A stretch of 40,817 bases of DNA from a virus. Position 1 is the first letter of the stretch, and each line of letters begins with the position of its first letter. The notes under the pieces were generated by a model that worked only from the letters and a program-made list of their open reading frames with translations, was not told the origin of the DNA and did not search any database. The position numbers and the translations under genes are program-made. Location: positions 1 through 40,817 of the IMG/VR virus record IMGVR_UViG_3300031957_000408; one strand, 5' to 3'. Below are positions 4,684-7,012 of this stretch, piece by piece.

Positions 4684-4876
4684 GTGATATGTATCTTCCT
4701 GTTTTTCTATGTAGCCAAGATGCTGTCTCTCTTAGTGAGCAAGTCTTTGAATATTCTCTTGCTTGACCCAGAGCATCTAATTCTTCTTTGATGGGTTCTA
4801 AATAATTTGGATCACTAGATTGTTTAAAACCAAATGGTATTGTTCTAGCTCTCTTTTTTATTTTTATCGGTTCCAT
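4574..4876 (-). CDS. Small helix-turn-helix protein next to terminase
   Basis: 100 residues. The middle (SLRETASWLHRKTG then YISHVGLKKRL) reads as a helix-turn-helix in which the second helix would enter DNA. The N-terminus is basic and the C-terminus is a Ser/Thr/Glu-rich tail. It lies between TerS and TerL, overlapping TerS by 32 bases and TerL by 110 bases, an unusually long overlap in a different frame. It may be an accessory packaging-site recognition protein or a second small-terminase-like component; this is inference from position and the HTH. Confidence 0.72.
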   Translation of the reverse strand: MEPIKIKKRARTIPFGFKQSSDPNYLEPIKEELDALGQAREYSKTCSLRETASWLHRKTGRYISHVGLKKRLARNTTSETQEDNSKESQEVNTTDSSSQS

Positions 4877-5267
4877 CTTTTGCTGGTAATATAAATATAC
4901 CGTGTAGAGCTTTCATGTTAATATCTAATTGATCCTTTTTAACAATACCTACTCTGTCTAGTATTGAGTTAGCGGCTGCTAGACGAATACTTGCCTGTGG
5001 AGTAGTGCCGTCTTCATCTAGTAAGGCGATTAACCTATTAGCCGCTTGTGCAGAGTGTGTAGATAAATGAGTCTCCGCTAATTCTGTAATCTCTTTTTTC
5101 AAATTCCTAATTACTTTAGGATAAGAATGGGAGGAATATCCTGCCAATCTTGCTGCTTCTCTTGGATTTCCCTTCGCTTCTGCGAACAATACGTCTAGAA
5201 ACTTTTCCTGCATATCTGTTAAGTTTCTCTTTTGAGTTTTTGTTATAGAAGAATCCATGTTTTGCAT
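4845..5267 (-). CDS. terS: Terminase small subunit (TerS)
   Basis: 140 residues. Residues 15-52 (LTDMQEKFLDVLFAEAKG, then NPREAARLAGYSS) form the classical small-terminase helix-turn-helix that recognises the packaging start. Residues 60-115 are a helical oligomerisation region. It is the first confidently identified gene downstream of the promoter at 5414-5442. The start at 5267 (MQNMDSS) has only a weak ribosome site; ATG at 5258 is an alternative. An out-of-frame reading frame begins upstream at 5331 and overlaps the 5' part. Confidence 0.88.
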   Translation of the reverse strand: MQNMDSSITKTQKRNLTDMQEKFLDVLFAEAKGNPREAARLAGYSSHSYPKVIRNLKKEITELAETHLSTHSAQAANRLIALLDEDGTTPQASIRLAAANSILDRVGIVKKDQLDINMKALHGIFILPAKDGTDKNKKES

Positions 5268-5331: not shown

Positions 5332-5413
5332 TTTATATGTTTTATTTGTGATGACCCTGTTTGTGTGTTAACTGTGTGTGTCTGTGTGTCCCTTAAATAA
5401 AACATATAAATAC

Positions 5414-5442
5414 ATTATAGTACTTATATGCAATTTTGTCAA
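5414..5442 (-). promoter_or_regulatory. Consensus sigma70 promoter for the packaging operon
   Basis: On the minus strand TTGACA (5442-5437) and TATAAT (5419-5414) are separated by exactly 17 bases, a perfect consensus. The predicted transcript would start near 5407, giving a CA-rich leader of about 75 bases before the first ATG at 5331 and about 140 before TerS. Confidence 0.88.
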
Positions 5443-5482
5443 GTATTATTTTTAAAAAATTACATCTGCGACATTATTGTAG

Positions 5483-5511
5483 TAGACAAAATTGAAATAG
5501 GGGTGTATAAT
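5483..5511 (+). promoter_or_regulatory. Divergent sigma70 promoter into a gene-free region
   Basis: TAGACA (5483-5488), 17 bases, TATAAT (5506-5511) on the plus strand. It points away from the packaging promoter; the two -35 boxes are 40 bp apart. Downstream there is no plus-strand ORF longer than about 20 codons until past 5944, where the minus-strand gene begins, so its product would be non-coding or antisense. Confidence 0.7.
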
Positions 5512-5517
5512 GTTCAT

Positions 5518-5922
5518 AGGAACCCCAGGGGGGCCTTTACACCTATCCTATTCTTATTTTTAGAAGTACCCCCTAGGGTATTCCCAGGGATATTGTCGGA
5601 ATATTAGGCCCTGAAATATGGCCCAGAGTTGGTTAACAAGGACTTTGGAGATTTTCTGGTAATGGTATATATATGGTATATACATACCCCCCTGTCCCCT
5701 GCGTATACCCCCTGCAAAATTTAGTTTTATTTTACAGAATAGCAAAGGCAACCCAAAAATATTGTCAGGGGTTACCCTAAAATTAATTTAAGTTTTTTTT
5801 GGTTACCACTTGAGGAGAGATTGGGGGGTGTAAATTTTTGTAACTAATAACCCCCCTGTGAACCACTAAATTTATTTTTTATGACACGCAAAAAAAACCC
5901 CCCGTATTTCTACAGGGGGTTT
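5518..5922 (+). ncRNA. Possible structured non-coding RNA of about 400 nt
   Basis: Candidate only. It begins at the predicted start of the promoter at 5483-5511 and ends at the hairpin shared with the minus-strand terminator. The tract is gene-free and, unlike the rest of this AT-rich genome, full of G and C runs that can pair. CAGGGATATT at 5585-5594 pairs with AATAT at 5600-5604 and CCCTG at 5609-5613. GGTATATATA at 5664-5673 pairs with 5679-5688 with one mismatch. GGGGGGT at 5823-5829 pairs with ACCCCCC at 5850-5856. ATATTGTC occurs twice (5590-5597, 5759-5766). The same features could belong to an origin or packaging site instead. Confidence 0.35.
5890..5922 (-). terminator. Intrinsic terminator after the 5944-6723 gene
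   Basis: Read on the minus strand, AAACCCCC and GGGGGTTT form an 8-bp stem (5922-5915 with 5902-5895) followed directly by a run of eight T. It is 22 bases past the stop of the unknown gene, and insulates it from the region ahead. On the plus strand the same hairpin is followed only by a weak T-run. Confidence 0.88.
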
Positions 5923-5943
5923 ATTAAAATCTAGCTTAGAGGG

Positions 5944-6723
5944 TTAAGCTGATTTTTCTGTTATCTCATCAGCTAAATTAATTTCATACTTACTGAAAGT
6001 ATCTCTAATCAAATTGAAATCAATCAAGCTAAATGATCCAATAACGCCAGCGTCCTCATCTGATATTTTTTCTAATATCTTTTCAGGTTTTTTGCTCTCA
6101 CAAATATTTTGCAAATTTTCTAAAATGCTTAAAGCCTCTTTTAAACTTTTAGAAATATTTACAGTATTTTTGGCATTTGGTCTTTTAGTTGTCGGATATT
6201 CTGCTGACCATATTTTATTAATGGTACTAGGCACAATCTCAACTAATTCTTCAGAAGTGTTTTTTACTTTTTTCTTACCACCCTTTTGACCTTTTTTAGA
6301 TTGTTCAATGAATGGTGTAGCCACTTTATCCATTACTAAAATTTCATTGTCTTTAGTAATATCAAATTGTTGTGGCTTTGAGTACATCATTATTGCTAAT
6401 CTAACTGCCATTGTGATTGAAACCTCAAAATTTTGGTTAAGGTCTTTTTTTCTGTCATAACTTGCTAAATTATAACAATGACCTCTCAAAAATTTCATTG
6501 TGTTCCAATCAGCTATCTCAACTTTTCCTGAGTTAATTTCTGTCATTAAAGTTTTAATAGCTTTAGCCATTTGAGGTACTACGACTGAGGTTAAGTTGTT
6601 AGTAATATTTTTTGCTTTAAATAATACTTTTCTTAATTCCTCATTTGATTTTAATGACTCCATAAAATTTTGATCTTTTATTTCCTCATTAGCCTCAATT
6701 ACATTTTTTACTTTTTTGCTCAT
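5944..6723 (-). CDS. Unknown soluble protein in its own transcription unit
   Basis: 259 residues from the ATG at 6723 (MSKKVKNVIEANEEIKD), chosen because AGGAA lies upstream of it; the frame stays open to an ATG at 6825 that lacks a ribosome site. It is Lys/Glu-rich and mainly helical, with a Lys/Gly-rich loop (KKGQKGGKKK) in the middle, and has no membrane segment or recognised catalytic motif. It is the only minus-strand gene between the packaging block and the plus-strand early genes and has its own terminator. A regulatory or nucleic-acid-binding role is plausible from the basic loop and location, but I do not recognise the family. Confidence 0.75.
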   Translation of the reverse strand: MSKKVKNVIEANEEIKDQNFMESLKSNEELRKVLFKAKNITNNLTSVVVPQMAKAIKTLMTEINSGKVEIADWNTMKFLRGHCYNLASYDRKKDLNQNFEVSITMAVRLAIMMYSKPQQFDITKDNEILVMDKVATPFIEQSKKGQKGGKKKVKNTSEELVEIVPSTINKIWSAEYPTTKRPNAKNTVNISKSLKEALSILENLQNICESKKPEKILEKISDEDAGVIGSFSLIDFNLIRDTFSKYEINLADEITEKSA

Positions 6724-6914
6724 TTTGTTTTTTCCTGTTCTATGATTAACCTTTAATGAATTGCCATTAAATTTAAAATTAATCATTACTATTCTTAAAC
6801 CATATAATTTTTTATTGCAACTCATTTGTTAAATTATTTTTTAGTTAAATGATTTAACTTGTATACTTCTGTCGCACCCCCCTTTTTTCAATCATTAGTT
6901 GAATAGAGCTTTGT

Positions 6915-6983: not shown

Positions 6984-7012
6984 TTGACACATACCTCTTT
7001 TAGTTGTATTAT
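6984..7012 (+). promoter_or_regulatory. Early sigma70 promoter
   Basis: TTGACA at 6984-6989, 17 bases, TATTAT at 7007-7012. It lies 34 bases before the first small plus-strand gene, and directly downstream of the duplicated 20-bp repeat. Confidence 0.8.

Follow-up and report, generated by a model that had tools for sequence, protein, structure and literature searches.

What function is served by the gene-poor tract of about 400 bp beside the terminase small subunit gene (TerS) of this phage? The 40,817 bases analysed (the window) form a virus record in IMG/VR, and the nearest isolate is Pelagibacter phage HTVC033P. HTVC033P is assigned to the HMO-2011 type, a dominant and broadly distributed marine group, in the available text of PMC9038755. 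The original prediction offered three functions for the tract: a large structured phage RNA, a replication origin or a packaging site upstream of TerS. Of these the packaging site was the best supported, with a core that recurs in related phages, in uniform orientation and near the pac position of Sinorhizobium phage phiM6. Sequence comparison suggests that the tract is, on balance, probably a pac region, at which headful packaging would be initiated, overlain by divergent promoters (Table 1).

Table 1. Features of the TerS-proximal tract and its surroundings (window coordinates).
Feature	Position	Strand	Basis or remark
Terminase small subunit gene (TerS)	4845..5267	-	PHROG 51, E 4.9e-7; 87% identical to HTVC033P TerS
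Hairpin element in TerS 5' leader; GGACACACA and GGTCATCAC conserved inside closing stem	5337..5405	-	Covariation, 96 sequences
TerS and late-gene promoter, TTGACA-17-TATAAT	5414..5442	-	Perfect match; TATAAT-type box also in related loci
Divergent promoter, TAGACA-17-TATAAT	5483..5511	+	Kept in 60/61 scorable HTVC033P-like loci
Conserved 5' domain directly after divergent promoter, 3' end GATTTTCTGG	5518..5660	+	Alignments
Candidate packaging core, whole	5631..5709	+	One regex match in window; same core in other HMO-2011-type phages
Core element GGTTAACA	5631-5638	+	
Core element ATTTTCTGG	5651-5659	+	
Core TATA block	5665-5686	+	
Core C-run	5687-5692	+	
Core element TGTCCCCTGC	5693-5702	+	
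Distal inverted repeat GGTTACCAC ... GTGAACCAC flanking TTTTTGTA	5801..5866	+	In 84/108 loci examined
Terminator-like hairpin of convergent gene, possibly two-way	5895..5922	-	T-run on minus strand
Convergent 293-aa gene, bounds tract downstream	5944..6825	-	Function unassigned; PHROG search without match

Composition and promoters of the tract

The tract (5518-5922) contains 11 runs of at least four G or C, compared with a mean of 0.63 and a maximum of 3 per 405 bp in the rest of the window, and its GC content is 0.40 versus 0.33. The predicted richness in G/C runs was thus confirmed. The sequence described as duplicated, ATATTGTC, occurs three times on the plus strand and once on the minus strand of the window, with two of these copies inside the tract. 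The region is indeed gene-poor, but the statement that it holds no ORF over 20 codons was incorrect, since it contains a 35-codon frame opening with ATG at 5673 and another of 31 codons beginning at 5629. The hairpin predicted to end the tract and to be shared with the opposing terminator was found at 5922-5895 as a terminator-like element; its T-run lies on the minus strand, and use in both directions is only possible.

The promoter said to point into the tract was located at 5483-5511 on the plus strand; the window has no second exact match of this type (0.13 expected). It stands back to back with the perfect TTGACA-17-TATAAT promoter on the minus strand. Among loci found via TerS with enough sequence to score, the divergent promoter was present in 60/61 HTVC033P-like, 77/77 HTVC103P/104P-like, 26/26 HTVC115P-like and 13/16 further loci; 19 of the 80 HTVC033P-like loci, and 11 HTVC103P/115P-type loci and relatives, were left out as too short. 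This conservation supports the predicted transcription into the tract. A profile of the promoter plus the 5' domain matched 181 of 197 loci (131 distinct) in a set that included loci fetched by TerS and by promoter pattern. TerS was found 228-725 bp from the divergent -10, in divergent orientation, in 124 of the 131 distinct loci, the other seven having too little upstream sequence. The spread of this gap indicates extra DNA between TerS and the promoter in some phages.

Alignments showed the roughly 140 nt after the transcription start to be highly conserved. Where downstream sequence sufficed, the next ORF of at least 60 aa past the promoter was convergent in all 61 HTVC033P-like loci and co-directional in all 33 HTVC103P/115P-type loci. 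The divergent promoter is therefore retained whatever follows downstream. At about 100 nt from the start, HTVC115P-type loci carry a terminator-like hairpin with a T-run, and similar sequence runs on beyond it.

A conserved core and its probable relation to packaging

Within the tract, conservation reaches deepest in a DNA-like core, located at about 5631-5709. Comparison between lineages gave the order GTTnACA (GTTAACA), an ATTTT-type motif, an AT-rich TATA block, a hypervariable G- or C-run and TGgCaCnnGC; the corresponding regex has a single match in the window (0.15 expected). The G/C-run flips between G-rich and C-rich among contigs with near-identical flanks (L245/L251, L313/L314, L305/L306 and others).

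The core is also present in intergenic DNA of HMO-2011, roseophages CRP-2, CRP-3, CRP-207, CRP-212 and CRP-738, ctYwJ313 and rhizobiophages. A profile built from 90 SAR11-phage-type cores was tested on held-out phages against five-fold shuffled DNA, and matched ctYwJ313 (E 3.5e-5), HMO-2011 (0.005), CRP-2 (0.035), RHph_N3_13 (0.046), phiM6 (0.36) and CRP-3 (2.0). These six outrank the best shuffled-DNA match (E 2.6), with modest scores across lineages. CRP-738 ranked with the shuffled sequences, and the matches listed did not include CRP-207 or CRP-212; the cores of these three phages were recognised by pattern or by eye. A description of such a core was not found in the available portions of the literature on HMO-2011 pac sites or pelagiphage headful packaging. 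PMC10504331 deals with an HTVC010P-type phage, of another group, and its available text is silent on HMO-2011-type phages.

Orientation of the core to TerS was uniform in the window, HTVC033P, HTVC103P, HTVC104P, HTVC115P, HMO-2011, the five roseophages, ctYwJ313, phiM6 and three RHph phages. The core is separated from TerS by about 0.4 kb in the window, by 0.5-0.7 kb in rhizobiophages, and by 3-8 kb in the roseophages, HMO-2011 and ctYwJ313. The 3-8 kb separation in HMO-2011 and the roseophages led us to discard a function linked solely to TerS.

The closest link to packaging comes from phiM6, for which PhageTerm analysis reported a pac site and terminal redundancy (PMC6256558). Like the tract, the phiM6 pac region lies upstream of terS, is noncoding and contains the same core. 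The published, read-end-based pac position is base 1 of the record and the core occupies 65-93, placing the two 64-92 bp apart. phiM6 differs in coming from a distant branch, its TerS being 34% identical, and in its gene-free gap of about 2.5-2.6 kb. RHph_N3_13 likewise has a stretch of that size upstream of TerS free of annotated genes, and the two phages align with each other there in short stretches only.

The records of the Rhizobium phages RHph_N3_13, RHph_I3_11 and RHph_N3_19 start within the core, two of them at the identical base and one displaced by 2 bases. Their first annotated genes begin at base 451 (N3_19), at 2018 (N3_13) and beyond 1200 (I3_11), making a gene-based choice of record start unlikely. 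RHph_N3_13 (L201) matches the group I intron family RF00028 with 60.7 bits at 2019-2236, just upstream of the annotated terL.

Contig ends were also surveyed. In HTVC103P- and HTVC115P-like phages, contigs (L213-L339) end on the upstream side of TerS much more often than on the downstream side: within 900 bp of the gene, ends fell upstream versus downstream in 54 versus 5 of 80 HTVC103P-like loci, and the HTVC115P-like count was 26 versus 1 of 47. No such asymmetry was seen in HTVC033P-like loci (21 versus 17 of 80). Hypervariable DNA could by itself break assemblies and so explain these ends. The ends scatter over some 700 bp and share no single base, and a cos site was rejected on this ground.

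The pac sites of P22 and SPP1 resemble the tract in lying near terS and in having a loosely defined cut zone between repeated TerS sites; neither is known to have a hypervariable G/C-run or a conserved promoter over the site. Lambda cos is similar in its position upstream of terS, its repeated TerS sites and its GC-rich cut site. It differs in that contig ends here are not confined to one base and phiM6 is reported to be terminally redundant with a pac site.

In the proposed pac region, TerS would bind repeated GTTAAC-like sites around the core (TATA block, G/C-run and TGgCaCnnGC, about 5665-5702), and the terminase would cut near the core, the head being filled with TerS-side DNA first. The core has both divergent host-type promoters on its TerS side: the first would drive TerS and the late genes, the second a transcript of about 400 nt over the core. 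A pac function leaves the conserved promoter unexplained. A transcribed pac in SAR11 phages is conceivable, if rather improbable: the promoter would fire over the core, the transcript or its R-loop would gate terminase loading or act as a packaging RNA, and the hypervariable G/C-run would give each phage its own packaging specificity. A candidate packaging signal common to phages of SAR11, SAR116, Roseobacter and rhizobia would provide a handle on how these phages begin packaging. It is unusual for a conserved site next to a near-invariant promoter to contain a fast-changing run.

Replication, RNA and leader alternatives

The repeated GTTAAC-like sites and AT-rich stretches adjoining a conserved promoter would also suit a replication origin, in which an initiator binds the repeats, the strands separate in the AT-rich stretches and the phage PolA-type polymerase uses the divergent transcript as its primer. 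The early/late switch is close to the tract, as is the window's GC-skew minimum, at a distance of about 1.5 kb or less. An origin nevertheless seems unlikely given the setting of the core in other phages. In CRP-3, CRP-212 and CRP-738 it is embedded in a series of genes on one strand that ends 3-4 kb away, and no sigma70 promoter pointing over the core was found in CRP-3, CRP-212, CRP-2 or HMO-2011. The phiM6 report, moreover, fits packaging directly.

An independent noncoding RNA, about 400 nt long and acting in trans, would account for the near-invariant promoter and the conservation of the first 140 nt or so. The transcript in HTVC033P-like loci is not an mRNA leader, as the next ORF is convergent in every locus scored (61/61), which again suits such an RNA. 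Tests of RNA structure argued against it. The 408-nt sequence folds at -112.1 kcal/mol, compared with -107.2 (sd 6.2) for shuffled sequences (z -0.80), and 19 of 100 shuffles did as well; the several hairpins originally proposed are therefore no more stable than expected by chance. Group mean z-scores were -0.06 and -0.34 in the sense direction and slightly better, -0.66 in both groups, in antisense. MAFFT alignments with RNAalifold gave folds that disagreed between groups.

Covariation was assessed with our own R-scape-like test (G statistic with APC; null model of substitutions redistributed on a FastTree tree). For the 5' domain, the analysis used the 108 of 131 distinct loci in which the -10 could be read and an anchor resembling GATTTTCTGG was present. 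Neither the 5' domain (95 sequences) nor the HTVC103P-like set (67 sequences), both highly conserved and thus of limited power, yielded a pair at E<0.05. In a 3' set of 35 poorly aligned sequences the best pair (E 0.05) was able to pair in only 63 percent and was not counted as support. The same script applied to the TerS leader hairpin yielded one pair below E 0.02, indicating that covariation is detectable in such material. Rfam gave no gathering-level match in the window, and matches in the tract were all sub-threshold, mostly at the minus-strand terminator. The large structured RNA of the original prediction was accordingly not supported, with no covarying pair at E<0.05, a fold at chance and no Rfam family. 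High conservation limits the power of these tests, so they lower the chance of a functional RNA but do not remove it. The core also occurs in CRP-3 and CRP-212 with no promoter pointing over it, and the terminator-like hairpin of HTVC115P-type loci comes some 100 nt downstream of the start, although similar sequence extends past it. We consider an RNA acting in trans quite unlikely.

Very unlikely, finally, is an early promoter with a long leader, possibly bearing an antitermination (put-like) site: it suits the HTVC103P/115P-type loci, where the next ORF is co-directional in every locus scored, and HTVC104P, where this is the sole near-consensus promoter of that direction in 830 bp, but conflicts with the convergent ORF of all HTVC033P-like loci scored and with a further near-consensus promoter in the window, at 6984, ahead of the early genes.

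Distal repeat and TerS leader hairpin

The arms of the distal inverted repeat showed marginal covariation. At two test positions, pairing was observed in 43/78 and 46/78 sequences, against shuffle means of 39.7 and 40.6. Both positions were paired in 33, versus a shuffle mean of 22.4 and a maximum of 35 in 10,000 shuffles; kinship is ignored in these counts. A comparison of each arm with its own and with the other arm was biased, because the windows had been picked by energy.

In the TerS mRNA leader, GGACACACA and GGTCATCAC lie inside an AT-rich closing stem. The pair detected by covariation belongs to the top stem, and the next pair scored E 0.2. This hairpin is a candidate cis-regulatory RNA.
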